A stretch of 21,024 bases of DNA. It comes from a virus. The stretch is from positions 1-21,024 of the IMG/VR virus record IMGVR_UViG_3300017922_000017; one strand, written 5' to 3'. A program made the position numbers and the translations under genes. This document shows positions 8,443-20,216 of the stretch, in pieces. The notes beneath the pieces were generated by a model. The model saw nothing but the letters and a program-made list of their open reading frames with translations. It had not been told where the DNA came from and searched no databases. How positions within the stretch are numbered: position 1 is the stretch's first letter; each line of letters opens with the position of its first letter.

Positions 8443-8684
8443 TCGGCTTCGTCTCCGGCGTCTAACTGTTGTTTCAAAACGTCGAGGCGATAAATCCAGT
8501 TCCAGAGTGCGGGGTATTCTGATTCAGGGAGTCGTCGGAGTTCATCAGCGACTTTGGGACCGGCCTCCGGCCAGGGCGGGCAATCGTTATAGTTCGCCGT
8601 CGCGCATCCGGCGCAAAATATCAGCGCGAGAAGCACGGCGGCGAGCAGCGATTTCCAGTTGCTTGCGTTGTATCCGGGCCGCAT
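8439..8684 (-). CDS. Outer-membrane spanin-like lipoprotein (Rz1-type)
   Basis: An 81-residue protein with a signal peptide (hydrophobic core about residues 13-26) and a lipobox-like end, Cys-Ala-Gly-Cys27, after which the mature part begins with ATANYNDCPPWPEAGP. Mature Pro-rich, short proteins of this sort are outer-membrane spanin subunits in Gram-negative phages. They join the inner-membrane partner and fuse the envelope at lysis. The -3 residue is Cys rather than Leu, so the lipobox is imperfect. Its first 98 bp lie inside the upstream inner-membrane gene in another frame, the embedded Rz/Rz1 arrangement. C-terminal helix PALWNWIYRLDVLKQQL. Role inferred from architecture and nesting. 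Confidence 0.7.
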   Translation of the reverse strand: MRPGYNASNWKSLLAAVLLALIFCAGCATANYNDCPPWPEAGPKVADELRRLPESEYPALWNWIYRLDVLKQQLDAGDEAE

Positions 8685-8805
8685 TTTCGGCGTTCTCCTT
8701 GGTCACAGAGTCTTTCCCGGCCTTGTAGGTCAGCAGGTACGGCAGGGCGGACAGGATTTGCCCCAGGACCGCCCCTATTGCTTTAATCAGTCCCGCCACC
8801 GGCAT
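8587..8805 (-). CDS. Inner-membrane spanin-like protein (Rz-type), compact
   Basis: A 72-residue protein with a single N-terminal membrane segment (about residues 5-26, GLIKAIGAVLGQILSALPYLL) and then a highly charged helix (about residues 35-68, rich in Glu, Arg, Lys and Ala) that would lie in the periplasm. This is the layout of an i-spanin, but at 72 residues it is shorter than lambda Rz (153). The lipoprotein gene starts inside it in another frame. It overlaps the upstream holin candidate by 23 bp. A small pinholin-like or other membrane protein is an alternative, because the hydrophobic segment is Gly/Ala-rich. Confidence 0.55.
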   Translation of the reverse strand: MPVAGLIKAIGAVLGQILSALPYLLTYKAGKDSVTKENAENAARIQRKQLEIAARRRASRADILRRMRDGEL

Positions 8806-9154
8806 TGTCGGCCTCGTTTGCTACATCAAGGTATGCTTCAATCCGCGCCCGGAGTTGTTCAGGCGTGTAACCTAATTTTTTGGCGGTCTTGGGGCCGTTG
8901 TCAGCAACGTATTGCAAGGCTTTCCCGGCAATCTCGTTGTCCACATGGACACCCACTTGATTGCCCACCAGGCCCTTGACCTGCCGCCGTGCAAACCGGA
9001 CCCCCTCGGTGATAATCCGGTCCAATTCCGGTTCCAGGGAGTCGAGTTTGAACTTGTGGGCCAGCCACGACGCGGCCCAGGACCCCAGGGCCATGAGGAC
9101 CATGCCCAGGATTTCCACTCCGTAATTCATCAGCGGTGCAAGGTTCACGTCCAT
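8783..9154 (-). CDS. Holin candidate (LLH-type, one membrane segment plus helical domain)
   Basis: A 123-residue protein with a transmembrane segment near the N-terminus (about residues 10-32, ILGMVLMALGSWAASWLA) followed by a charged helical domain (LEPELDRIITEGVRF; AGKALQYVADNGPKTAKKLGYTPEQLRARIEAYL). Size and plan resemble the LLH holin family, which forms the membrane lesion that releases the endolysin. I choose ATG 9154 because AAGGA lies eight bases upstream; the ATG at 9163 would add three residues but has its ribosome site too close. The endolysin stop is a few bases upstream, so the two genes are translated together. Family assignment is tentative. Confidence 0.6.
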   Translation of the reverse strand: MDVNLAPLMNYGVEILGMVLMALGSWAASWLAHKFKLDSLEPELDRIITEGVRFARRQVKGLVGNQVGVHVDNEIAGKALQYVADNGPKTAKKLGYTPEQLRARIEAYLDVANEADNAGGGTD

Positions 9155-9156
9155 TT

Positions 9157-9600
9157 TCACCATCCTTTGGCTTTGTCAGCCGCGTGGACCGCTTCGGTGA
9201 GCCGGAGCGGACTGTAAAGATACTCTGAGTTGCGCCGGGTCCAAACGATACGCGGCGATTCATTCCGCATGTCCAGGTGCCAGCCCGGAGAGTTCCAATC
9301 CGGGTAAAAGCCAATGCCGCCAAATTGCGTCATGGACAAAATACAGGCCATTTGCACCGCGTAAGACACCACCGGCTCAAAATGCAGGTCCACCGCTTGC
9401 CCGGTGTAATGATACGATTGCGGACTGTGGCCGCCTTGCGACCAACAGACATGGATATGGATTGGCACGTCTTTGCCGGATACGGCAGAAATGAAGCCCC
9501 GTAGCTCGTCCACGGCATGGACCAACAAGGGGCTTGCTTTGCGCGGGTCGTCGCCCCATTCTTTCGGCAGGAAATGTTTGACTTTGCTCCAGTTCGTCAT
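9157..9600 (-). CDS. Endolysin, peptidase M15 family (L,D/D-Ala carboxypeptidase fold)
   Basis: A 147-residue zinc peptidase expected to cut the peptide part of peptidoglycan at the end of infection. The M15 (VanY/Ply-like) signature is clear: S-x-H-x-x-G-x-A-x-D as SYHYTGQAVD (His64, Asp71), and the second ligand in PGWHLDMR (His108). There is a WSQGGHS loop before it. No signal peptide is seen, in keeping with a holin-dependent endolysin. ATG 9600 has a CAAGGCGGAGCC leader. It is the first gene after the capsid gene and a GC-rich hairpin. Directly followed by the holin candidate. Confidence 0.9.
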   Translation of the reverse strand: MTNWSKVKHFLPKEWGDDPRKASPLLVHAVDELRGFISAVSGKDVPIHIHVCWSQGGHSPQSYHYTGQAVDLHFEPVVSYAVQMACILSMTQFGGIGFYPDWNSPGWHLDMRNESPRIVWTRRNSEYLYSPLRLTEAVHAADKAKGW

Positions 9601-9624
9601 GGCTCCGCCTTGTGGTTATAGTGT

Positions 9625-9659
9625 GGGGAACCGGGCAGGAGGACGGGACCCGGTTCCCC
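9625..9659. terminator. GC-rich stem-loop between capsid and endolysin genes
   Basis: Perfect 11-base inverted repeat, GGGGAACCGGG at 9625-9635 and CCCGGTTCCCC at 9649-9659, with a 13-base loop. It lies 18 bases past the capsid stop in the direction of transcription. No run of T follows the stem on the minus strand, so it is not a strong intrinsic terminator. It could attenuate, stop processing, or protect the 3' end of the very abundant capsid message so that lysis genes are expressed less. A TATAAC sequence sits just downstream on the minus strand but has no convincing -35. Confidence 0.6.
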
Positions 9660-9676
9660 TTGAGAGGGAGCAGGGG

Positions 9677-10696
9677 TTAGGAGGTTACGGTAGCGTAGAC
9701 AATGGCTTCCGGTTCCCACAGTACGGGCAGAGGGCGGGATTCAGCCAACATCCACAGGCCGGACGGGTCCTTTTCCAGCCAGGACTTGGAGAAATACTCA
9801 CCAACCACGCGGGCGTTGGCATCCAGGTCCAGAATGACCCCGTGTTCCAGGGTGATGCGGGCGTTGGGGTTAATGAAAATGGCGACATTGGAGGGTATGA
9901 CCGGGGCGGTCGTGCCGCTACCGTCGGTCAGCTTTTTGGCGTAGCGGTAAAACTCAATGCCGTAGCCGTTGCCCAGGTAGTCGTTGTTTACGTCCCAGGA
10001 CAGATTACCGGCGTTGACCCGGCGGGCGTCGAACCACTTGCTATCTTTGGCATGGGCCAAAAACGCCTTGGCCGCGTTTGCGCCCATGACGCACATGGTC
10101 GGGCCGGAACCGGACCCTTCCGCGATAAGGTCCGCCCAGGTCTGCAAGTCGGCCTCAACAGTCGGGTCCGTGTCGTCCCAAAGCGGGGAGGCCGTCGGCT
10201 TGTGCGCGGAGGGCATCAGGTAGTCGATTTCAAAGGCGAGGTTGTCTTGCGCCACAGTGATGGTGCCGGACAGGGCTTGGCCGCACATCCATTCCTTGGT
10301 GATATCCACACGGCGGCGCAGGTCGGTCAGTTCCTGGCCCACTTTACGCTGGCGGGCACGGTTAATGTCCCCAGCTCCGGTGGCGTAGAAGGTTTGTCCG
10401 GCGGGCCGGGTGGTCAAAAGCTCTTGCGCGGTGAACTGCTTTTTGGGGCGAACGCGAGGCGTTTTGACGCTCCGCATTTCCTGGCCCAGCTTGCCGACAA
10501 CCGTGCCGCCTTCAACGGGAGACACAAACGGCACGACTTCCTTGCCGCCCAGGGTAATGTCCACGTCGATTGTGTCCGTCTCGTTGGAGTTCGATTCGGA
10601 AAAGATGGTGGACAAAAGCATCTGCGGGGCGGGCTTGACCGCGTTAATGGCGCGGGTCATGTTGCGCCATTTGAATTCGTCAAAAGGAATAGGCAT
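9677..10696 (-). CDS. Major capsid protein (lambda E family)
   Basis: A 339-residue protein of the lambda gpE / major capsid protein E family. Features recognised: a leader MPIPFDEFKWRNMTRAINAVKP, a helix-strand region EVVPFVSPVEGG, the RPAGQTFYATGAGD segment, a long helix (NRARQRKVGQELTDLRRRVDITKEWM), and a C-terminal set with LEHGVILDLDANARVVGEYFSKSWLEKDPSGLWMLAESRPLPV, typical of this family's end. Length is close to lambda E (341). It assembles the icosahedral shell. Start ATG 10696 has AAAGGGAG upstream. The preceding gene encodes the decoration protein, as in lambda (D before E). The protein is probably the most abundant product of the operon. Confidence 0.93.
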   Translation of the reverse strand: MPIPFDEFKWRNMTRAINAVKPAPQMLLSTIFSESNSNETDTIDVDITLGGKEVVPFVSPVEGGTVVGKLGQEMRSVKTPRVRPKKQFTAQELLTTRPAGQTFYATGAGDINRARQRKVGQELTDLRRRVDITKEWMCGQALSGTITVAQDNLAFEIDYLMPSAHKPTASPLWDDTDPTVEADLQTWADLIAEGSGSGPTMCVMGANAAKAFLAHAKDSKWFDARRVNAGNLSWDVNNDYLGNGYGIEFYRYAKKLTDGSGTTAPVIPSNVAIFINPNARITLEHGVILDLDANARVVGEYFSKSWLEKDPSGLWMLAESRPLPVLWEPEAIVYATVTS

Positions 10697-10709
10697 CGTC
10701 TATCTCCCT

Positions 10710-11090
10710 TTATTTGTTGTAGATTCCAGCGGCTTCGAGTTGGTCCAGGGCCGCAGTCTGTTCGGCTTCGGTAATGCCGTCGTGCGTCCAGACCAATTCG
10801 TCAGCAATGACCACACCGTGGACCAGGGCGACAGCGGGCTCGTCGTTGGTGTCGTCCACGGTTACGTCGTCGAGCAGGACCACGGCGGCAGTCTCGGAGC
10901 CGTCGGCGGCGAGCGGGTTCAGGCCCGCATACAAGCCGGAGGCGGTGATTTTCCCCAGGACCGTGCCGCGTGTGTAGATGGCTTCCGCGCCGGTGGTGGC
11001 AATGGTAATTGCCTTGGTCACGGGCGGATGGTCGCCCAACACCGTATTCGGGGTCACCGAGTTACTATTGATTCCAAAGTTTTGAGTCAT
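10710..11090 (-). CDS. Capsid decoration protein (lambda D family)
   Basis: A 126-residue beta-rich protein with the head decoration protein signature: a flexible N-terminus, then RGTVLGKIT, LYAGLNPLAADGSETAAVVLLDDVTVDD and a C-terminal helix AALDQLEAAGIYNK. Trimers of lambda D bind threefold points of the expanded shell and stabilise it against packaged DNA. Lambda D is 110 residues, so length is normal. The gene lies immediately upstream of the major capsid gene as in lambda. ATG 11090 has AAGGAG eight bases upstream. The 50-bp gap before it holds the ribosome site and no terminator is seen. Confidence 0.9.
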   Translation of the reverse strand: MTQNFGINSNSVTPNTVLGDHPPVTKAITIATTGAEAIYTRGTVLGKITASGLYAGLNPLAADGSETAAVVLLDDVTVDDTNDEPAVALVHGVVIADELVWTHDGITEAEQTAALDQLEAAGIYNK

Positions 11091-11140: not shown

Positions 11141-11416
11141 TTATTCTTGCCCGGTCATGGCTTTAATCAGGTCGTCGCAGTAGCCCTCTTGCTCGCCCTG
11201 CTTCGTCCCGGGAGTCTGCTTTTCCAGGGCTTCGATGCGTTCCGTGAGCGGCTTGGTGGCGTCTTGTACCGCTTTGGTGACGGCTTCAGCGGTCAGTGGT
11301 TCCGGGCTTTGGCTTTGGTCGGTGTCGCCTGTATTGGCCTTTTCAAGCACGTCCAGCCGGTCAGTCAGGGGCTTGGTGGCTTCGGCAACAGCTTTCTTCA
11401 CGTCTTCGTAGGTCAT
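11141..11416 (-). CDS. Nested scaffold protein from internal start (lambda Nu3-like arrangement)
   Basis: An in-frame ATG at 11416, inside the protease gene, has AAGGAG nine bases upstream, so a separate 91-residue protein identical to the protease C-terminus is likely made. It is helical, with two copies of a 25-residue unit (residues 6-30 and 46-70; KAVxxATKPLTxRLxxLEK). It ends with LIKAMTGQE. Lambda makes Nu3 scaffold from an internal start in gene C in the same way. Role as scaffold for the capsid protein is inferred from location and composition. A short coiled coil of this type is normal. It is not known whether both products are made. Confidence 0.65.
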   Translation of the reverse strand: MTYEDVKKAVAEATKPLTDRLDVLEKANTGDTDQSQSPEPLTAEAVTKAVQDATKPLTERIEALEKQTPGTKQGEQEGYCDDLIKAMTGQE

Positions 11417-12160
11417 CTCTTCATTCTCCTTACCTTTTAAGCGATTGAAAAACTTGGCGAAAAAACCCTTTTCCGATTTTTGTTGCTTGGAAAAGCTCGC
11501 CAGCATTGCGGCTTTAAATTGGTCCAGTGTGTCGGAAATTGCGGTTTGCTTGTCGGTTACGTCCTCGTCGGACAAGATTGATTCAATGGCCCGCCGCAGA
11601 GCCCAAAAAAGGCCGTCGGCATTTTCCGAAGCGTTTGCGGTGTCAAAGTCAAAGGCTTTTCGCGCTCCGTCCGCTCCGTCCGTTTGAATAAAGGTCGCGC
11701 TTCCGGCCATGCTCAAGCCCTGAATTTCGCCCTTCTTGACCGCTCCCCAGGTTTCATCGTTGTCGATTTTGATTGCGACCACCCACGTCCCGGCTTTCTC
11801 GTCGGGGAACATGGGGTCTTGCCCGCGCAAGATAAAGCTCTCGGCAACGTGCGCCCCTTCTTGCGGGCGAAAGTCGTGGTCTTTATCCACGTTCCGCACG
11901 AAAGCGTTTGCCAGAAAGTCGTGCGCGGCTTTCTCAATGTCCTCAGCCGAGGCCCAATCCCCGTGCGCGTCTTCGTCGTCCGGCGCGTAAACCACGCCGT
12001 ACAGAAGGCGTTTGTCTTCGTCGGTCTTAATGAGGCGCAAAAAATCCTCTTTGTCCGACTTGGCCGGGGCGTCTGCGCTTTTCCAGACAACGGTTCGCTT
12101 GTTTGCTCCCTTGGGGACCAGGGAAAGGAAGTTGATTTTCAAATCGGTCAGTTGCGGCAT
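11141..12160 (-). CDS. XkdF-like prohead serine protease fused to a scaffold domain
   Basis: A 339-residue protein. Residues about 1-165 resemble the XkdF-like protease domain (Peptidase_S78_2): LLYGVVYAPDDEDAHGDW, then His95 in DKDHDF and Ser108 in HVAESF, with the GTWVVAIKI and EIQGLSMAG strands. The catalytic His and Ser sit where expected for prohead maturation proteases. Residues about 170-240 are linker helices with FFAKFFNRLKGK. The C-terminal 91 residues are a coiled-coil scaffold (see the 11141-11416 entry). I chose ATG 12160 because the leader has a purine-rich GGGGGAA site, and residues from the earlier possible start look non-coding. Protease-plus-scaffold fusion is common; it directs capsid assembly and is then removed by the protease. 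Confidence 0.82.
   Translation of the reverse strand: MPQLTDLKINFLSLVPKGANKRTVVWKSADAPAKSDKEDFLRLIKTDEDKRLLYGVVYAPDDEDAHGDWASAEDIEKAAHDFLANAFVRNVDKDHDFRPQEGAHVAESFILRGQDPMFPDEKAGTWVVAIKIDNDETWGAVKKGEIQGLSMAGSATFIQTDGADGARKAFDFDTANASENADGLFWALRRAIESILSDEDVTDKQTAISDTLDQFKAAMLASFSKQQKSEKGFFAKFFNRLKGKENEEMTYEDVKKAVAEATKPLTDRLDVLEKANTGDTDQSQSPEPLTAEAVTKAVQDATKPLTERIEALEKQTPGTKQGEQEGYCDDLIKAMTGQE
11207..11281 (-). repeat. Scaffold helix repeat, copy 2
   Basis: Second of two 75-base direct repeats coding for a 25-residue helix (VTKAVQDATKPLTERIEALEKQ...). Copy 1 is 45 bases upstream in the reading direction, at 11327-11401. The protein copies match at most positions; the DNA copies differ at several, so the duplication is not recent. 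Confidence 0.8.
11327..11401 (-). repeat. Scaffold helix repeat, copy 1
   Basis: First of two 75-base direct repeats coding for a 25-residue helix (VKKAVAEATKPLTDRLDVLEKA...). Both contain the core ATKPLT followed by an amphipathic helix. The linker between the copies is Asp/Ser/Pro-rich. Confidence 0.8.
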
Positions 12161-12317
12161 CGGTGTTCCCCCTTGATTTGTTGCCCAAATGGGATACAAA
12201 GACAAAGCATTTGTCCACCTTGAGTTGTACGGACACACCCAAAACTGTACCTTTTTGTCTGTAAGGCGTACTCAAAGTTGCTAGTGTCCGGTGAAAAGCA
12301 AACCGGAGGTAGAAAAT
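12161..12317. promoter_or_regulatory. Divergent intergenic region between protease and portal genes
   Basis: The only sizable divergent gap in the window, 157 bp between the leftward protease ATG (12160) and the rightward portal ATG (12318). It is visibly A/T-richer than the genes and should hold the start point of the rightward portal transcript, as no promoter is visible elsewhere for it. It may also hold one for leftward transcription. I did not find a strong consensus -35/-10 pair on either strand; weak candidates such as TTGTCT at 12255 with TTGCTA at 12278 are near chance level. The core GTAC occurs three times at exact 20-bp spacing (12227, 12247, 12267). Just before the portal ATG lies GGAGGT. 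Confidence 0.5.
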
Positions 12318-13601
12318 ATGGCAAGTGAAGCGTTTGGCGGGGCGAAAACCGTTTTTGTTGCGAAAGTAAGTCCATTGCGGAAAGAGTCTGTGCAAATCGA
12401 ACAAGACGACGTTGGAGACATTATTTCTCCGCCGCAGAACGACGAATACGGCGACGTGCGCGAGTATTGTCTTGGACTGCAAGGGGTGAACTCGTACCAT
12501 GACCTTGCTGTTCAAACCAAAAAGGCTTGCACGGTAGGGCTCGGGATTGACCTGTTGGAGACGGACGGCTCAGAAGAGGCCGTCATGGACAGGCTTTCGG
12601 AAGTCAACGAATACGGGCAGAGCTTTTTTGACGTTGCGGCCCAGGCCGGGGAAGACTTCTTTGCTGGCGGGGCCGGGGCTTTGGAAGTGGTGCGGGACCG
12701 TCGAGGCCGCGCCGCTGAGTTGTATTACATGCGGTCCCAGGACGTGCATTTCCGGCCCCGTGGCTCAAGAACCCCTTTCTACTACATGGAAGAAGGTATT
12801 TTGACGCCGTGGGCGCGGTTCAAGGCCGGGGAACGCGACGAAAACAGCATCCTGTACGTTCCTCTGTTGACCAACAAATCGCGCCTGTACGGTATCCCGG
12901 ACTGGCTCGGTGCAATCCCGGACATTGAACTGGACTACTACGCCGTGCGCTACAATCAACGGTTCTTCCTGAACTCCGGGGTCCCGGATTTGGCTATCGT
13001 GGTCGAAGGCGGGGAACTTGGAGAGGAAGGCGAAAAGGCCGTGCAGGAGTTCTTGCGGAGCAATTTCAAGGGCGTGGACAACGCGCACCGGGTCTTATAC
13101 CTGCCAATCCCCGGCGAAGACGTGACCGTCAAGTTCGAGAAATTGGCGTCGCAGTTGAAAGACCAGGATATGAGCTTTGAAAAGCTGCGGATGCAGTGCC
13201 GGGATAACATTCTATCTTCTCACCGAATCCACCCCCGCGTTGCAGGTGTCGTACAGTCCGGGCAGTTGGGCGGGTCCGGCGAAGTGTACGGGCAGTTGCA
13301 AATGTTCCAGGAAACGACCGTCGCCCCGTATCAGCGGCTTTGGGAGGCCAAATTGCGCCCCGTGTTGGCCGACTTCGGCGTCAAGGACTTCCGGCTCCGC
13401 TCTCTGGACCCGAACGTGACGGAGAAGCCGTCCGAAGCCCTGCCCAAATATGTTCAGGCCGGGATACTCGACGCGGAAGAAGCGCGGGAAGAACTTGGCT
13501 ACGCCCGGAGGGAAGAAGACCCCGAGGAACGGACAGAAAAGGGCCTCATTCGGTCGCTTGAGGCGTTCCGTAAGGCAAACACCGGGGAGGGTGGCGCATG
13601 A
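12318..13601 (+). CDS. Portal protein (PBSX/XkdE-like family)
   Basis: A 427-residue portal protein, the dodecameric ring through which DNA enters the head. The recognisable parts are the N-terminal clip/stem region (GDVREYCLGLQGVNSYHDLAVQTKKACTVGLG), the family-typical AGEDFFAGGAGALEVVRDRRG, the conserved LYGIPDWLGAIPDIELDYYAVRYNQRFFLNSGVPDL, the helix RMQCRDNILSSHRIHPRVAGV, and a C-terminal QMFQETTVAPYQRLWEAKL. It starts at ATG 12318 (GGAGGT eight bases upstream); a GTG at 12291 in frame lacks a site. It is on the plus strand while almost everything else is minus, so it has been inverted or has its own transcription. Its stop overlaps the next start (ATGA). Confidence 0.93.
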   Translation: MASEAFGGAKTVFVAKVSPLRKESVQIEQDDVGDIISPPQNDEYGDVREYCLGLQGVNSYHDLAVQTKKACTVGLGIDLLETDGSEEAVMDRLSEVNEYGQSFFDVAAQAGEDFFAGGAGALEVVRDRRGRAAELYYMRSQDVHFRPRGSRTPFYYMEEGILTPWARFKAGERDENSILYVPLLTNKSRLYGIPDWLGAIPDIELDYYAVRYNQRFFLNSGVPDLAIVVEGGELGEEGEKAVQEFLRSNFKGVDNAHRVLYLPIPGEDVTVKFEKLASQLKDQDMSFEKLRMQCRDNILSSHRIHPRVAGVVQSGQLGGSGEVYGQLQMFQETTVAPYQRLWEAKLRPVLADFGVKDFRLRSLDPNVTEKPSEALPKYVQAGILDAEEAREELGYARREEDPEERTEKGLIRSLEAFRKANTGEGGA

Positions 13602-14089
13602 GCCTGGAAAGCCAAATTGCGCTTCAGGTGGCGGAAAAAATCAGAGACGCGGCCACCAAACAGGGGCGCATACCGTTCAAGACCGGGGACCTGAGGAAGT
13701 CCATCCAGGCCAGCCTTGTCCGTCAAGGCGTCGCCACAGTCGGGTCAAACCTGTCCTATGCCCGTGCGGTCCACGACGGACGCGGCCCGGTCACAATCCG
13801 GCCCAATATCGACAAGAACCCGCCACGCGGGGAGCGCAAAAAATACCACAGCAAGGCGTGGTATCAGCAACACCCCGAACGAGCGCGACTCAAGTTCAAA
13901 ATCGGGAACCGTGTCGTGTATGCAAAGGAAGTGCGGCAACCGGCTCGGAAAGGTCAGCCGTTTCTTACAGAAGGGTTGCGAGAAGTGCAGAGAGAGGGAT
14001 TTGAATTTCTCTATCCATTACTGCGGGATAACCTGAATAAAAAGATTGCGCGACATATAGTTGATACGATAAAGATTGACTTGCTCTGA
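13598..14089 (+). CDS. HK97 gp10-like head-tail connector / tail completion protein
   Basis: A 163-residue protein similar to the HK97 gp10 family: an N-terminal helix (IALQVAEKIRDAATKQG), an RTGDL-like motif as FKTGDLRKSI, VGSNLSYARAVHDG (equivalent to the usual 'Y---V-fG' segment), the Arg/Pro middle, and the characteristic C-terminal RKGQPFLTEGLREV. These proteins complete the tail or neck and join tube to connector. GGAGGG lies six bases upstream of ATG 13598, and ATGA couples it to the portal. The gene ends with Lys/Ile-rich helices. It is followed by a terminator and then a convergent gene. It normally lies downstream of portal and capsid genes, so the pairing with portal is unusual. 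Confidence 0.8.
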   Translation: MSLESQIALQVAEKIRDAATKQGRIPFKTGDLRKSIQASLVRQGVATVGSNLSYARAVHDGRGPVTIRPNIDKNPPRGERKKYHSKAWYQQHPERARLKFKIGNRVVYAKEVRQPARKGQPFLTEGLREVQREGFEFLYPLLRDNLNKKIARHIVDTIKIDLL

Positions 14090-14136
14090 CGGCCAGTCCC
14101 GTTCTGCATGCTCTTGTGACCTCACTGACTCCTGTG

Positions 14137-14170
14137 GCAAAAGCCCCGGCCCCCAACGCCGGGGTTTTTG
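14137..14170. terminator. Bidirectional intrinsic terminator between convergent genes
   Basis: A 14-bp stem (GCAAAAG-CCCCGGC pairing with GCCGGGG-TTTTTGC, one G-T pair) with a 7-base loop CCCCAAC. T tracts follow on the plus strand (TTTTTGCTTTTT) and, read the other way, A-tract-derived U run on the minus strand. It lies between the plus-strand connector gene (stop 14089) and the minus-strand MuF-like gene (stop 14175), so it can stop both transcripts. Confidence 0.88.
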
Positions 14171-14174
14171 CTTT

Positions 14175-15110
14175 TTATTTGCCGTCAATCGGTTCTTGCG
14201 AGAACTCGGCAACCGTGATTGTCCGGCACCGGGCATGGTACGGCGGTGGGCCGACCTTCCCTTGTGTAACGGCCTCTCGCCGCCCCTGTGCCGTTTCCAG
14301 GCGTCCCGCTTGCTGGTCAGACCACCAGGGCCACGCCTCTTTTATCGCCTCCTTGTCCCGGCTTTCTGCCGCCTTCATGTAGTTATCCACGAATTTCCGT
14401 TGGTGTTCAACGGAAATAACCGTGCCGTGCAAGTTTCGGCAGATTGCCGTGGTCCGGTCGTCCAGTTGTGCCTTGACCCGGATTGTCTTCACCCCGGCCT
14501 GTTCGTACCCGGACACGCGGCCAATTTCGCGGATTTTGGTCGCCGTGTGGTCCGCGAAGAAGTCCCAGTACGCACGGGACCGCCGCGCAATCCCCGCCGT
14601 GGTTTCTTCCAACGCCCAGGACAAGTCTTCCCTGGTCCCCTCGACCCCCCGGAAGTGTTCGCGCAGGCCTTCTTCAAGCTTTTCTTCCAGGTGGTCGTTG
14701 AAATGCTCCCCAATCCAGAACTTGGTTTCACCGGTCAAGACTTTCAGGCTTTTCACGTCCGGGTCCTGGAACTGCCACGCGACACCGGGGACGGCCTTCG
14801 CCCCGGCTTCGCCGCCGTTCCGGTACGCGGCCTCGGCGTGGTCCTCCACGTCCGCGCCCACGACTTCGGCAAAGCGGTGGCCCAGGCGGGTCCGGTAGTG
14901 GTCCCGAAGCCAGTCTTCAATCTCCGGGACCGACGCCTTTGTGCGTTGCAGGTAGCGGATGCCGTCGATTGTGGCTTGACGTAGTTGCCGCTGAAAAGAG
15001 TCGCGCAGGACTTGGCGCATGGACCGCACGATTTCGTCCAAGTCGCGGGCCTTGAGTATCGTTTCCGCCTCTTTTGCCAGGGCCAGTGTTACGAGCGAGG
15101 GATTGGACAT
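14175..15110 (-). CDS. MuF / SPP1 gp7-like head morphogenesis protein
   Basis: A 311-residue protein of the Mu gpF / SPP1 gp7 minor head family. The C-terminal signature is present: DDRTTAICRNLHGTVIS with a downstream PPYHARCRTITV, the Cys/His set typical of this domain. The N-terminal two-thirds are long charged helices (LVTLALAKEAETILKARDLDEIVRSM and others). It is probably a minor capsid protein binding the portal or packaged with DNA. ATG 15110 follows GGAAGG; upstream in this frame the residues belong to another gene's shadow. It overlaps the zinc-ribbon gene by 22 bp and its stop lies just past the terminator. In other phages it follows the portal gene directly. Confidence 0.85.
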   Translation of the reverse strand: MSNPSLVTLALAKEAETILKARDLDEIVRSMRQVLRDSFQRQLRQATIDGIRYLQRTKASVPEIEDWLRDHYRTRLGHRFAEVVGADVEDHAEAAYRNGGEAGAKAVPGVAWQFQDPDVKSLKVLTGETKFWIGEHFNDHLEEKLEEGLREHFRGVEGTREDLSWALEETTAGIARRSRAYWDFFADHTATKIREIGRVSGYEQAGVKTIRVKAQLDDRTTAICRNLHGTVISVEHQRKFVDNYMKAAESRDKEAIKEAWPWWSDQQAGRLETAQGRREAVTQGKVGPPPYHARCRTITVAEFSQEPIDGK

Positions 15111-15367
15111 GCCGGCCTTCCTTCGTGCGTTTGAAACCGTGTCAGACAGGTGTTGCAACGGCGATACCTGGACACGACGGTTCCCATGTCTTGCACTTTC
15201 CCGTCGATGGTCGTGTGCATTGAATTGCAGTTGGGGCAAAACACAAGTTCCTCGGTCTGATACGGTTGTTTGCACCAGTGGCATTTGCGGATTCGCAAAA
15301 GTCGCCACCGCACGATTTCCTTGTCTACGATTGTTGACTTCTTCCGGCCGCAATGCGGACACTCCAT
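15089..15367 (-). CDS. Tandem zinc-ribbon protein (NrdR/Ogr-like ribbons)
   Basis: A 92-residue protein with two consecutive four-cysteine zinc ribbons. Ribbon 1 is Cys3-x2-Cys6 ... Cys29-x2-Cys32 (MECPHCG, KCHWC). Ribbon 2 is Cys44-x2-Cys47 ... Cys71-x2-Cys74 (FCPNCNS, RRCNTC). Each ends with a similar R-x-C-x2-C-x4-F/Y-x-T-x-E pattern, like the NrdR ribbon and the Ogr/Delta and Com-type phage regulators. It is likely to bind nucleic acid and could be a late activator, a translational regulator or a packaging accessory. ATG 15367 overlaps the terminase stop and has a GAGGGGG ribosome site. No other domain is seen. No certain family name given. Confidence 0.7.
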   Translation of the reverse strand: MECPHCGRKKSTIVDKEIVRWRLLRIRKCHWCKQPYQTEELVFCPNCNSMHTTIDGKVQDMGTVVSRYRRCNTCLTRFQTHEGRPACPIPRS

Positions 15368-15369
15368 GT

Positions 15370-17757
15370 CTACCCCCTCAAAACTTTGGCCCCGGAGACA
15401 ACCTTGCCTTGTCGCTTGGCAAGATACTCCAGGGCTTGTGTTGTCATATCGACTTGATCGTCGTTTTTCGCCGCAGGAAAGCGGCAGAGTTCTTCTAAAT
15501 AGTCGTCCACCCAGGGCGCATCTTCGGGCAGGTAGACATTTCCGGCTTCGACTTGTGGCGACACGGCCCGCGCCCGGACCTCTTTGCTGGCCTTGTTCAC
15601 CTGTTGAGCAATAATTGGGGCCTTGATTTCCCGGTCCCGCTTCAAATCCTGGACCAGAGACTTCCCGGAAGCCATGTATTCCACAAGGATAGCATCGGGT
15701 TGCCATTTTTTGTACTCCCGGATAACCGCCCGCTTCAAGTCCGGATATTCCAGGCGTTTACGGCATACATCGCGCAAAAAGTAACCCACCCCATACTCGT
15801 CCCAGGTCCCGCCCACGGTCCAGTCTGCAGAGTCGTTGTCTTCGTAGGCCGTGTCCCATGACTGGATTCGGAGTTTACGCTTCCGTGGTAGCTCCCGATA
15901 AAACTGCCACCAATTCCAATGAAAGATTCCGCCTTCCTCAGACACAGGCCGTTGTTGGTACAGGCTGTTCCACCAAAAGGTGCCCAGGTCCGACTTGGTG
16001 TCCGTGAGCCATTTCAGGTTGTAGCGTTCCGGCCACAGGGCTTCGCCGCGCTCCCGGCCCAAAAGGTCATCGTCTTCCGCAATGGCCGGGAAGTTGACTT
16101 CCTCAAACGGTTCAATCTCTCCGCGCCGGGACAGGTCCAAAAGCCGCCCGGCAAGATCGTCCTCGTGCCAGCGCGTCATAATAATTATTATAGCCCCGCC
16201 GGGTTGAAGCCGGGTCTTGGCCGTGGCCCGGTACCAGTTCCATGTCTTTTCCCGGTACGTCGGGGACATAGCTTCCTGGTCGTTCTTCACCGGGTCGTCG
16301 ATAAGGAATACGTCGGCCCCTTTACCCGTGACACCGCCGCCGACGCCCACGGACCACATATAGCCGCCCTGGTCCGTGCGCCAGAACTGGCCGGAGCGCG
16401 TGTTGGGGTCCACATCGACACCAAAGACAGTCGGCCCCCATTCTTTCAGCGTGTCGCGGGCTTGTTTGCCCCAGGTCTGCGCGTAAGACGACTCGTAACT
16501 TCCCAGAATAACCTTTTTTTTGGGAAAATTGCCCAAGAACCACGATGGGAAATATCTTGACGTGAACTCGCTGTTGTGAGTTGGAACAAGGTGTTCCCCG
16601 ACAAGGTAAAGCCCATCCTCTCGAGCAACCTGTATGCACTTACCGGCCTCCGGGCGTGCCTCCCGTATTGCCTTAACACCCCGTCGCCACCGTAAGCTGT
16701 TTGACGTGCTAAGTCGTTTTCTTTCAAGTCGTGTTGGGATTGTAAGGTCCGCTGAAAACGTAAGCTGGTAAACTGTTTTTTTGCCGTTAATACCAGAGCT
16801 TGACACAGTTGGAGCATAAGACGCGATTGTTGCCCTCCACCCAAGAGACCTTACGAGCTTCGCTGTATCTTGTACCAACCTATGGTTGACGTTTGAAAAG
16901 CAATACCTTTTTGTCTTTTTGTGAACGTATCCGTCAGTGTCTATAAGGCCAGCTAAAAGCTCAAGCCTTTGCTTTACGGAGGAAACGAGGTACGCGCTTG
17001 GAATATGCTTGTTGTTCCACAGACCAAGACTTTCAAGCCCGTGTTTCATTGTTTGAGTAAAATACGTCGTCAATACGCCGGTGTTTTTGTGTTCGCAGAC
17101 AGCGGATATCCTTTGCCCGTGCTTCACCAAGCTATCAATGACCTGTTTATCTTTGGGCGAATGCGTGATGCACGGCTTGCTCGAAGACCCATCCCCAAGC
17201 CAAGCCCCAAGAATGTACGGGTCCAAAGGCAAAAGAGCCTCTTTTCCTTCAATCCGTGGCGTTTCGGGGACTTGCAAGACAGCCCTTTTTTTCTTGCCCC
17301 CTGAAAACAAGGTCCTCTTTGCCATTTCGTGCGTTTCCATCGTGCGCCATGCGCCCCTTGAACGGTCGTAAACAACCCATTCATGGCGCGGATGCACCTT
17401 TACAGTCGCACCGTCCGTGAACTCGACTTCAAGCGTCGCAAGGTCCGCCGGGGATTCCCCAACAACCATTGCCGCTTTTCCGTCCGGGCCATACACGAAA
17501 TCCCCAGGGTGAAGCTCGCCATGCGTTGTCCACCCAGAAGGGGCCAAGACAGGCGTGCTGTCAGCTACAAGCTTCCCGTGTTGTGGAGGCATCGAAATAA
17601 TAAGACGCTGGCACTGCCCCCGTGCGACTTCCAGCAATTTATCGTTCAACGCCGCCAGGTGTCGCGGGAAGACCCAGGCCCCATTACTCGTCAGGTGTGC
17701 CCACCACGCCGGGGTAGCTTGAGCCAGGAGCAATGGATTCGAGCAGTTCATTGGCAA
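15370..17757 (-). CDS. Terminase large subunit (TerL) precursor with intein
   Basis: A 795-residue precursor; the mature TerL would be 462 residues after removal of the intein (residues 63-395). It is the packaging motor. The Walker A loop MPPQHGK-(intein)-SEFTS is rebuilt on splicing. Walker B is DVFLIDD (482-488), followed by a TRWHEDDLAG coupling segment (about 528-537). The C-terminal nuclease has Asp635 (SWDTAYED), Glu693 (LVEY) and Asp767/Asp770 in NDDQVD. This C-terminus resembles the TIGR01630-type phage terminase. The start is TTG at 17757 because GGAGG lies nine bases upstream; ATG at 17751 is 15 bases from it. It overlaps the TerS gene by 74 bp. DNA packaging should be impossible until the intein is removed. 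Confidence 0.92.
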   Translation of the reverse strand: MPMNCSNPLLLAQATPAWWAHLTSNGAWVFPRHLAALNDKLLEVARGQCQRLIISMPPQHGKLVADSTPVLAPSGWTTHGELHPGDFVYGPDGKAAMVVGESPADLATLEVEFTDGATVKVHPRHEWVVYDRSRGAWRTMETHEMAKRTLFSGGKKKRAVLQVPETPRIEGKEALLPLDPYILGAWLGDGSSSKPCITHSPKDKQVIDSLVKHGQRISAVCEHKNTGVLTTYFTQTMKHGLESLGLWNNKHIPSAYLVSSVKQRLELLAGLIDTDGYVHKKTKRYCFSNVNHRLVQDTAKLVRSLGWRATIASYAPTVSSSGINGKKTVYQLTFSADLTIPTRLERKRLSTSNSLRWRRGVKAIREARPEAGKCIQVAREDGLYLVGEHLVPTHNSEFTSRYFPSWFLGNFPKKKVILGSYESSYAQTWGKQARDTLKEWGPTVFGVDVDPNTRSGQFWRTDQGGYMWSVGVGGGVTGKGADVFLIDDPVKNDQEAMSPTYREKTWNWYRATAKTRLQPGGAIIIIMTRWHEDDLAGRLLDLSRRGEIEPFEEVNFPAIAEDDDLLGRERGEALWPERYNLKWLTDTKSDLGTFWWNSLYQQRPVSEEGGIFHWNWWQFYRELPRKRKLRIQSWDTAYEDNDSADWTVGGTWDEYGVGYFLRDVCRKRLEYPDLKRAVIREYKKWQPDAILVEYMASGKSLVQDLKRDREIKAPIIAQQVNKASKEVRARAVSPQVEAGNVYLPEDAPWVDDYLEELCRFPAAKNDDQVDMTTQALEYLAKRQGKVVSGAKVLRG
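16573..17571 (-). other. Class 3-type intein with LAGLIDADG homing endonuclease in TerL Walker A
   Basis: In-frame 999-bp insertion coding for 333 residues between Lys62 and Ser396 of the TerL precursor. It starts LVADSTPVLAPSGW (block A), so residue 1 is Leu, not Cys/Ser/Thr. Block B has HPRHEW with His125 and Trp127. Block F is CIQV with Cys374, and the end is VPTHN followed by Ser396 (Thr393, His394, Asn395). Trp, Cys and Thr at these three places are the WCT signature of class 3 inteins, in which the block F Cys replaces the N-terminal nucleophile. LAGLIDADG endonuclease motifs are YILGAWLGDGS (181-191) and LLAGLIDTDGYV (267-278). GC in two sampled 60-base lines is about 37-42 percent, against about 70 percent in a flanking TerL line, which suggests recent arrival. 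Confidence 0.92.
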
Positions 17758-18340
17758 GGCGCGACGCCTCCGGGTCGTTGGTAATTCGTTGTGCTATGGA
17801 TTTTGTTTCGTCGTCTTTTTCTTTGACTTCATGGGAGTCGGTGTGTTGCCCGTAAGCAAGCCGCTCTATGTCGGTCAAAGCCCTCAAAGCCCGAGGCATG
17901 TCCAAAATGAGCTTCATCAGGTCGGTGTTTGACCCAAACCGAAGCCGGGTCCCCTCTGCTTTGGCTTCTTCCACTCGCTGTTTCAGGTCTTCAATCGGTT
18001 GAAGCAAGGCAACCATCGACTGCGAAGCAATTCGAGCGTGACGCCGCCCCATCTTCTCCATCTCGTCGAGGAAAGCCCCCGATTGCTTTTTGTTTGCCTC
18101 CTGGTCCCAAAACGAAATCCGCTCAAGCCACCGCCACCGCACAGACCAAATGCTGAGTTGGTAGATTGTCTTGTAGCCAAGTCGGCTCCGTGCGTTCTCA
18201 AGGGACCGCTCGGGGCCAAGCTCCAGGTAAGTCCTGAAAGCGTTGTATGCTTTTGACGTTTCGCCAGGAAGCCGTTCTCCAGGGGAGAAGGACCGAACAT
18301 TCACGTCCTCGGGCACTAAGCTGGATTTTTTGCTAGGCAT
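17684..18340 (-). CDS. Terminase small subunit-like (TerS)
   Basis: A 218-residue, strongly charged helical protein directly upstream of TerL. Residues about 30-80 (AFRTYLELGPERSLENARSRLGYKTIYQLSIWSVRWRWLERISFWD) look like a helix-turn-helix DNA-binding segment, as found in TerS proteins that choose the packaging site. A central coiled coil (about 100-130) could oligomerise the ring. The C-terminal part ends in Gly/Ser/Pro (GSSYPGVVGTPDE). It overlaps the TerL coding start by 74 bp, an unusually long overlap that reinforces coupled production. Position and size are typical of TerS; the family itself is very divergent, so the assignment is mostly contextual. Confidence 0.75.
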   Translation of the reverse strand: MPSKKSSLVPEDVNVRSFSPGERLPGETSKAYNAFRTYLELGPERSLENARSRLGYKTIYQLSIWSVRWRWLERISFWDQEANKKQSGAFLDEMEKMGRRHARIASQSMVALLQPIEDLKQRVEEAKAEGTRLRFGSNTDLMKLILDMPRALRALTDIERLAYGQHTDSHEVKEKDDETKSIAQRITNDPEASRLANELLESIAPGSSYPGVVGTPDE

Positions 18341-18834
18341 GGTTCCGTCGCCTCCTTAGTCGCAACGTAGTAGTAAGGCTCCCCGCACAAAGGCCAAAGC
18401 AGGAACCCCGACACGCGGAAAAGGGCCCTGATCAATCGGGGTTTTGCAACGCCGACGTTCTCCCGGTACGCGGCCTTGCCGTGGACGGCATACGCGGAAG
18501 CGGACCCTGACAGAAAAGGGCGGTTGTACCCGACAACAAAAACCGGCCCAGGGTGCAAAGCAATGTCCAAGATTGCTCGCCAGGGCAGGTAGTTAATTGC
18601 GAACAGGGAAAGAACCCCGTGCGCCGGGTCCACAAGGTACGAAGCATCGCCGCAAACGAACTTTCTGCCGGGGAACTTTGCGCGGCAACGGGCCACCATG
18701 TCTTTGTCAATGTCTACGCCGACATAGCCCCGGCACGAAGGACAAAAAGAAGCCCCAAGCCCTGTCCCGCACCCCAGGTCAACCCATGAAGAAGCCTGGA
18801 ACGCCACGGAACGGAAAGTCCGCCGGATTTCCAT
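18316..18834 (-). CDS. Class I SAM-dependent methyltransferase
   Basis: A 172-residue protein with the SAM-binding motif I, WVDLGCGTGLG, then YVGVDID (acidic residue after strand 2) and FVCGDAS. These are the usual class I Rossmann methyltransferase motifs. There is no NPPY/DPPY target-base motif (a NYLPW is in the corresponding place), so a DNA adenine/cytosine N-methyltransferase is not supported; the substrate is unknown. Cys62 and Cys65 in the CPSC segment are extra. ATG 18834 is a best guess: no good ribosome site is visible, and the reading frame is open further upstream. It overlaps the end of the PP-loop gene by about 56 bp and the TerS start by 25 bp. Confidence 0.75.
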   Translation of the reverse strand: MEIRRTFRSVAFQASSWVDLGCGTGLGASFCPSCRGYVGVDIDKDMVARCRAKFPGRKFVCGDASYLVDPAHGVLSLFAINYLPWRAILDIALHPGPVFVVGYNRPFLSGSASAYAVHGKAAYRENVGVAKPRLIRALFRVSGFLLWPLCGEPYYYVATKEATEPCLAKNPA

Positions 18835-19516
18835 GTTCTGGAACGCCGTGCCTGTACTGCTGGTCGTACACTTCGTTGTATTGCCACCCGTGTTCATGTA
18901 TGGCCTTCCAAATGTCAGAATACGACCAGTCATAAAGCGGGTAAAAAGTATAATGGTTCTTGGCCTTGAGCTTTTTGCCCCATGTCACCCACTTGTACGT
19001 TCGCGCCCCTGTCAGTCCTGCTCGTCGCGTTGGGGATTCCTCACACCGGACGCCGCCAAGCATTGCAAAAGGCTCTTTGGGGAACAGGTGGGCCGGATAA
19101 TAAGAAAACATTTCTTTTATCCGTGTTGTCCCGAAGTTGTTTTCTTTGATTGAAACGGGGTCTTTGTCTCGAAGCCATTCAGCCCCTTCCTCCCAACACC
19201 CAATCCAATCTTTTTCGTGTGAAGTGGCGTTGAAAATGAAGATAGGACATTGCAACCAGTGTGGTTCAACGTCGTCCCGGTACATAACGCTTTTGATTAC
19301 GTCTATTGTCTGCGTGAACTCCGCTTCCTGGTCTATGAAAAGAACAGGCAACGGGGTCCGGCCCATCTCTTTTGCAACCTCTAGCGCAAGGTGAAACGTG
19401 ACCGTGCTGTCTTTGCCGCCAGAATGGGCAACAAAGACGTTCCCGAACTCCCCAAAGACAAAGCGGATTCGTTCCTTTGCCGCCTCCAAGACGTTCTCGT
19501 CCTTAAAGTAGCGCAT
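18779..19516 (-). CDS. PAPS reductase / IbrA-like PP-loop ATP pyrophosphatase family protein
   Basis: A 245-residue protein with the PP-loop HSGGKDST (residues 31-38), a GVRCEESPTRR motif (about 155-165) and YPLYDWSYSDIWKAIHEHG (about 192-210). These are the marks of the PAPS-reductase/IbrA/DndC-like adenylating family. The likely chemistry is activation with ATP by pyrophosphate release; whether it acts on sulfate, a nucleic acid or another substrate is unknown. There is no CxxC-type sulfur-donor pattern typical of sulfate reduction. ATG 19516 has AAGGA nearby; an earlier in-frame start is poor. GC in two sampled 60-base lines is about 40-43 percent, far below neighbours, pointing to horizontal acquisition. 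The C-terminus after YRHG looks abbreviated compared with relatives. Confidence 0.8.
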   Translation of the reverse strand: MRYFKDENVLEAAKERIRFVFGEFGNVFVAHSGGKDSTVTFHLALEVAKEMGRTPLPVLFIDQEAEFTQTIDVIKSVMYRDDVEPHWLQCPIFIFNATSHEKDWIGCWEEGAEWLRDKDPVSIKENNFGTTRIKEMFSYYPAHLFPKEPFAMLGGVRCEESPTRRAGLTGARTYKWVTWGKKLKAKNHYTFYPLYDWSYSDIWKAIHEHGWQYNEVYDQQYRHGVPEHGNPADFPFRGVPGFFMG

Positions 19517-19581
19517 TCGCCTTTTCCTTCTGTCTGTTTCTTGTCTCTCTTGGTGGCCGGACAACGGTCAGCTTTGTTGCA

Positions 19582-19710
19582 TTAACGGATAATATGCCCC
19601 CGGCCAGTGGCCTTGCTTTCTCTTGTGAAAACCCCTTGGAGTTCCCACACGGCCCCGCTGTTTGTTTCTTCAATGTATTTCCCGACAACCCAAGCATCTA
19701 CGCCTTCCAT
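19582..19710 (-). CDS. Small protein, 42 residues, possibly frameshifted
   Basis: ATG 19710 has AAGGAG seven bases upstream, so it is very likely translated. The product reads MEGVDAWVVGKYIEETNSGAVW then a GVFTRESKA segment, a compact strand-turn-helix beginning. It resembles small phage proteins I remember with a 'W---GVF--E-KA' centre, but no family is assigned. It overlaps the dCTP deaminase end by 13 bp. The frame ends early at 19582, whereas a different frame stays open to 19503, which would overlap the next start like other junctions here. A run of five C at 19597-19601 (plus strand) is the natural place for a one-base change or a slip. Confidence 0.6.
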   Translation of the reverse strand: MEGVDAWVVGKYIEETNSGAVWELQGVFTRESKATGRGHIIR

Positions 19711-20216
19711 GCCTTCGCTCCTTCCGTTTGTTTTTGCCGCTGATACCGGCCACAGTAGCCTTGCTGGCACCCACCGACCTCAAAGAACACCAGTTGCGCG
19801 ACACGGGTTCCAACAGGGATTGAAAGCGTCTGTGGGCCGTGGTTGCAGATTTCAAGCGTGACGTGGCCGGTAAAGCCAGGGTCGAGCCAGCCGGCGGTGA
19901 CATGGACCGCAAGGCCAAGCCGCCCCATTGTCGAACGCCCGTCCACTTGCGCGGCCAGGGACCGGGGCAGGTTCACGCGCTCAAACGTAGACGCCAGGGC
20001 GAATTGCCCAGGGCGCAAGACAAGCTCGTCCCCGTCCACGGTGCTGTATTCCGGGGTTGTTGTCCCTGGACAGACAACCTGTCCCGGACACGGGAAAAGA
20101 AAAGGACCCGCCAAGGCCACGTCGTAGCTGGCGGGTTGCAAGGACTGCGGTGAATACGGCTCGACAAGCGCGGTGCATTTTGCGCGGGCTTTGATTTCTG
20201 AGTCTCCTAAAATCAC
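19698..20216 (-). CDS. dcd: dCTP deaminase (Dcd)
   Basis: A 172-residue trimeric-type dCTP deaminase/dUTPase-fold enzyme: PASYDVAL in place of the usual PASLDLRLG, DGRSTMGRLGL (93-102), HVTAGWLDPGFTGHVTLEICN (105-125) with the catalytic Glu122, and the C-terminal QLVFFEV and GRYQRQ. It converts dCTP to dUTP, which feeds dTTP synthesis, and phages use it to shift nucleotide pools toward replication. Length is normal (E. coli Dcd is 193). The start is GTG 20216 behind AGGGGG. It is G/C-rich like the structural genes. No partner dUTPase or thymidylate synthase is visible in the window. Confidence 0.9.
   Translation of the reverse strand: MILGDSEIKARAKCTALVEPYSPQSLQPASYDVALAGPFLFPCPGQVVCPGTTTPEYSTVDGDELVLRPGQFALASTFERVNLPRSLAAQVDGRSTMGRLGLAVHVTAGWLDPGFTGHVTLEICNHGPQTLSIPVGTRVAQLVFFEVGGCQQGYCGRYQRQKQTEGAKAWKA

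Follow-up and report, generated by a model that had tools for sequence, protein, structure and literature searches.

A divergently oriented portal and neck gene pair in the head-gene region of a viral contig and its relatives

In tailed phages, few features are as conserved as the order of the head genes. The portal is dodecameric, with one portal at one vertex of the head, and its dosage is widely assumed to matter. In phage P2, the site bound by the activator Ogr is at about −55 of two divergent promoters. The P2 GenBank record shows a leftward P–Q operon that encodes TerL and the portal, and a rightward O operon that encodes the scaffold, the capsid and more. The start sites are 3016 and 3127, and both promoters are served by a single activator-binding site, 3057–3087. 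HP1 has the same divergent layout. Several other described phages have their head genes on one strand. The Methanobacterium phage psiM2 has the order TerS–TerL–portal–protease–capsid, as do PBSX-type head modules. In the lambda-type head modules of the Casjensviridae phages Saba and Suzuki, and in the Sulfurimonas phage SNW-1, TerL, portal, protease, decoration and capsid genes are all co-oriented.

The stretch of DNA analysed here, termed the window, is 21,024 nucleotides in length and comprises positions 1 to 21,024 of the IMG/VR virus record IMGVR_UViG_3300017922_000017. The portal gene is on the plus strand at 12318–13601 (427 aa; PF04860 Phage_portal, 2.2e-23; PHROG 12, 2.4e-32). It starts at an ATG at 12318, which is preceded by GGAGG, and its stop codon ends at 13601; the N-terminus is conserved among relatives. 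The second gene of the inverted unit, at 13598–14089 on the plus strand, overlaps the portal gene by 4 bp and encodes an HK97-gp10-like or Neck1 head-completion protein (PF04883, 2.7e-4; PHROG 5, 'tail completion or Neck1', 3e-10). These two are the only plus-strand genes between TerS–TerL–MuF on one side and the protease, decoration, capsid and tail genes on the other, all of which are on the minus strand.

The leftward unit begins with an XkdF-type head maturation protease at 11141–12160 (PF14550, 6.5e-33), whose real start, by alignment with relatives, is at 12160. It is followed by a lambda-D-type head decoration protein at 10710–11090 (PF02924, 8.2e-21), the major capsid protein E at 9677–10696 (PF03864, 4.4e-76) and, to the left of the capsid gene, connector and tail genes. 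On the other side of the pair, and also on the minus strand, are a MuF-like minor head protein at 14175–15362, convergent with gp10 (PF04233, 0.0015; several PHROG minor-head families), TerL at 15370–17757, interrupted by a LAGLIDADG intein (PF17289, 5e-15; PHROG 38, 2e-107; Hom_end; LAGLIDADG_3), and TerS at 17684–18340 (PHROG 6299, 5.6e-23). Translation and family searches thus bear out both the strand layout and all of the gene names given in a preliminary description of this DNA. A second contig of 27.6 kb, IMGVR_UViG_3300017923_000008, is collinear with the window at 99% identity over 9.4 kb. As this is an independent assembly, the layout is not an assembly error, which the preliminary description had named as a possible source of the arrangement.

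The gpQ proteins of P2 and HP1 match the portal profile at E ~1e-32. In the window, as in these two phages, a portal of the same broad family is transcribed away from the scaffold/protease–capsid operon across one divergent control region, and the portal unit, like that of P2, ends in its own terminator. However, the terminase ATPase gene of P2 is at the gap and the portal gene is distal, whereas in the window the portal gene is at the gap and is followed by the neck gene. The P2 TerL gene shares the portal operon, but in the window and its closer relatives (clade A, below) TerL and MuF are on the other strand, and the window TerL is beyond MuF. P2 has capsid N and scaffold O, whereas the window has capsid E (PF03864), decoration protein D and the XkdF-type protease (PF14550). 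A search of 15 contigs, some of which may be fragments, gave no match to the Ogr/Delta zinc-finger activator (PF04606) at E up to 1. psiM2 is similar in having a related portal (28% identity) and an XkdF-like protease after the portal gene, but differs in that all of its genes are on one strand. Saba, Suzuki and SNW-1 share a related capsid E and decoration D with the window and differ in being co-oriented throughout. The cultured phages compared here for having a related portal or capsid, namely psiM2, CGphi46, Circinus, Trina, SNW-1, Saba, Suzuki, Cr-LKS3, SS2019XI and P24, are all co-oriented. Literature searches, which covered open-licence papers, gave no title or abstract with a description of the divergent layout in such phages.

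The two boundaries of the inverted unit differ in character. The divergent gap is 157 bp in length (12161–12317), measured from the conserved starts, and would be expected to hold the start signals of both units; its promoter function is presumed. No sigma-70 promoters were found in the window, where 0.8 would be expected by chance. The convergent gp10/MuF junction has a terminator hairpin at 14136–14172 with 15 pairs, nine of them G-C, and a dG of −27.8 compared with a shuffle minimum of −18.6. The long U tract is on the plus strand only, and the hairpin is therefore strong on that strand and weaker on the minus strand. A divergent gap and a bidirectional terminator had been proposed as the flanks of the unit; both are present, and the term bidirectional is fair, with termination weaker toward MuF. 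An equally strong hairpin is present at the same junction in L005, a contig of clade A. A conserved terminator at the convergent end was considered and rejected: strong hairpins are limited to the window and L005, and there are none in clade B. Inverted repeats or recombination sites, which had been suggested as marks of an inversion, were not found at the boundaries of the window unit. The best inverted pair in the repeat search is a perfect 14-nt match between 12669–12682, within the portal gene, and 14140–14153, in the terminator hairpin, and is probably due to chance in GC-rich DNA.

Relatives were collected from viral contigs by one capsid search and two portal-alignment searches, which gave about 80 loci, and head genes were mapped by iterated profiles. 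Two clades have the divergent layout. Clade A consists of the window, the L005 group, L015, L016, L021–L023 and near copies, in all 12 contigs of seven lineages; clade B consists of L017, L027–L056, L060 and L068, with portal identities of 25–31%. In clade A, portal and protease genes are divergent in 12 contigs, with portal identity down to ~42%. With one exception, L025, the portal–gp10 pair is opposite in orientation to the protease, decoration and capsid genes, and also to MuF and TerL where the contig extends that far. In clade B, all 29 contigs in which a protease or capsid gene is seen have capsid and protease on the minus strand and portal and neck on the plus strand. A later scan with the clade B alignment added 28 new contigs; all 27 that could be scored are divergent and none is co-oriented.

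Whether a relative is divergent or co-oriented, its gp10 gene directly follows the portal gene and shares its strand, such that portal and neck stay paired in both states. The clade B neck protein has no family match. Its profile, built from clade B sequences only, nevertheless matches clade A gp10 with an hhalign probability of 96.5%, compared with at most 0.2% for five control families. The isolation of the pair is most pronounced in the 54.5-kb clade B contig G005, where no other structural genes on the plus strand interrupt a 41-kb tract of minus-strand genes. Between 9.7 and 50.9 kb, the remaining plus-strand open reading frames called have just 97 and 76 codons, and a replication module that includes a family A DNA polymerase is on the far side. 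TerL is differently placed in the two clades. In clade A it is on the strand opposite the portal; in clade B it is far from the portal gene but on the same strand in eight of the nine contigs where it was found (the exception is G007), portal strands for this count being taken from the contig ranges of the portal search.

L025 (IMGVR_UViG_3300027985_001637), from an uncultivated phage, has a portal that is 44% identical to that of the window. Its genes are in the order TerL–MuF–portal–gp10–protease–decoration–capsid on one strand, with a 119-aa gene, endolysin-like by eye, between gp10 and the protease gene. The gene set and order are those of the window, but portal and gp10 are co-oriented with the rest and the MuF–portal gap is just 46 bp. 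Since this locus holds the pair in the co-oriented state in L025, the event was a flip in place of two genes as a unit, and the flip is not essential. The synteny comparison thus supports the part of the preliminary description that proposed an inversion relative to the canonical order, in that L025 and the cultured phages listed above lack it and have all head genes on one strand. A recent or site-specific event, on the other hand, is unsupported, since essentially all relatives are divergent and no recombination repeats flank the unit; the depth of conservation in clades A and B rules out a recent inversion. The flip is of long standing and has been stably maintained.

In the portal tree, clades A and B are apart from the co-oriented portals (SH-aLRT 86; 84 after P2, HP1 and psiM2 are added). 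A four-gene tree of portal, protease, capsid and tail tube places L025 as sister to the window and L005 (bootstrap 93, SH-aLRT 86). From these sequence comparisons, the flip is most simply taken as ancestral to both clades, i.e. as preceding the A–B split, with L025 a revertant. An AU test does not reject a basal position of L025 in clade A (p 0.163), and two independent flips are therefore possible.

Candidate control elements are found in some of the divergent gaps. Clade B gaps contain an 18-bp dyad with the consensus TTTGATAGATCTAGCAAA, which a motif sampler scored at 12.1 bits, compared with at most 9.9 bits in shuffles. As GMTANNNNTAKC, the dyad is just upstream of the portal gene in 13 of 27 clade B loci and is 65-fold denser there than elsewhere in the same loci. 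The GMTANNNNTAKC pattern was fixed before the second clade B scan, and it was again found near the portal gene in 10 of 28 newly scanned loci, at 55 times the background density. It is missing from half of clade B and is not in the window. An RNA hairpin in the portal leader was considered as a reading of the dyad and rejected: leader folding has a mean z of −0.08, is no stronger than in shuffles and is weaker than that of capsid leaders. With no enrichment of RNA folding in the leader, the dyad more probably acts at the DNA level, as a candidate site for a binding protein, and TTTGATAGATCTATCAAA is a putative protein-binding site. The dyad could serve the portal as an operator in its leader, or the capsid unit as an activator site upstream. 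A TATACT hexamer is also seen in the divergent gap of clade B contigs, e.g. L034, L037, L047, L049, L054 and L060, and in four of these it is ~43–46 bp from the dyad.

Part of clade A (L015, L016, L018 and L021) has a different palindrome in the gap, with a TATAGCGNTATA core. The palindrome is unique within 45.7 kb in L016, and its outer arms covary among L015, L016 and L018. The gaps of the window and L005 have neither the clade B dyad nor the TATAGCGNTATA-core palindrome. Compared with P2, whose gap holds the activator site, the clade B dyad differs in sequence, and the best dyad in the window gap is not significant (8 of 60 shuffles are as good).

The explanation we consider probable is that an old and stably kept in-place flip of the portal and neck genes split the usual single late operon into divergent units that share the gap at 12161–12317. 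The portal–neck unit would run rightward and end at the 14136–14172 hairpin, and the protease–decoration–capsid–tail unit would run leftward from the gap. TerS–TerL–MuF would be a third unit, ending at the same hairpin. Portal and neck proteins, which are required in low numbers and when head assembly begins, would be transcribed apart from the shell proteins, which are needed in hundreds of copies. The split would work as in P2, where the terminase–portal and scaffold–capsid operons diverge from a single activator site that they share. P2 already provides a known case of a divergent portal unit, which makes the window layout a new variant of a known design, and by this analogy a P2-like mode of action is a reasonable supposition. 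The P2 analogy together with the clade B dyad also makes it plausible that the portal unit has its own promoter and separate expression, as the preliminary description had proposed; an activator or a repressor may control portal dosage or timing. The flip thus probably gives the gateway genes their own expression control, much as in P2. A more far-reaching proposal, which we put forward tentatively and hold to be somewhat doubtful, is that the lineage permanently splits its late genes between a gateway strand (for portal and neck, usually joined by TerL in clade B) and a shell and tail strand, and that portal dosage or timing is set by a dedicated regulator that binds the dyad at the portal start and evolved apart from P2 and Ogr.

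Other explanations can be weighed against an old flip kept for regulation. The layout might be a frozen accident, i.e. one old flip in which promoters happened to serve both directions and which was kept by descent with no regulatory benefit. An accident would fit the general tendency of phages to keep their head-gene order by descent, the lack of any regulatory element that can be recognised in the window, and L025, which appears viable with the pair flipped back. Yet no co-oriented case beyond L025 is seen among clade A and B contigs with a visible protease or capsid gene, across deep divergence, and much of clade B retains the portal-start dyad, at 55–65 times background, also out of sample. 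We therefore regard an accident as unlikely. Even less probable is inheritance from a P2-like ancestor, in which case the layout would be the P2 Q/P versus O/N arrangement itself. The match of both gpQ proteins to the portal profile and the divergence of portal and TerL from scaffold and capsid in P2 and HP1 are in its favour. But the P2 and HP1 portals are on a long separate branch, with clades A and B nearer to co-oriented portals; gene order differs, with P2 TerL adjoining the gap and the portal distal; the capsid, protease, decoration and TerL families are different; and no Ogr/Delta regulator was found in the 15 contigs.

That the pair is a reversible, site-specific invertible segment conferring phase-variable portal expression is scarcely credible. 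L025 does have the opposite orientation at the same locus, but there are no inverted repeats at the boundaries, near-identical contigs show no mixed orientation, and inversion would be a poor strategy for an essential gene. An artefact of assembly or binning deserves equally little credence: although the window is known from a metagenomic contig only, the second assembly is collinear at 99% and the same junctions are present in dozens of independent contigs. A lineage with a flipped pair, a natural co-oriented relative and a conserved control element in a sister clade offers a comparative system in which selection for separate portal expression could be tested. It also points to a possible repeated origin of the P2-type divergent layout.

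In genome collections, the clade A portal is found in one MAG fragment only, L018, and in none of 296 other sampled genomes of its phylum. L018 is a deltaproteobacterial MAG contig with just a truncated endolysin gene, the portal and gp10 (8470–10981), derived from an L015-like phage at 91% identity. The endolysin has an in-frame fusion to an integrase-like C-terminus, and the remnant adjoins peptide ABC-transporter genes. At 12547–12645, 99 bp from the 3′ end of gp10 are present as a further copy, which flanks 1.6 kb of other DNA. The remnant may mark the host and an insertion site at the 3′ end of gp10.

The convergent gp10/MuF junction is a cargo spot in L015 (10936–18150) and L016 (10980–13750). 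Among the cargo genes of L015, one looks like a DNA methyltransferase and another like a large ATPase-like protein, and both contigs have long MuF-linked C-terminal regions that look, by eye, like ADP-ribosyltransferases. In the window, the TerL intein (15370–17757) is inserted directly after the Walker A motif (PPQHGK). It seems to begin with Leu rather than Cys or Ser and to end with HN before Ser, which would make it an atypical splice class; the intein is present in L002 and absent from the TerL of L005. Upstream of TerS are a PAPS-reductase-domain gene (18782–19564; PF01507) and a gene that is dCTP-deaminase-like by eye (19698–20216), both possibly concerned with DNA or nucleotide modification.
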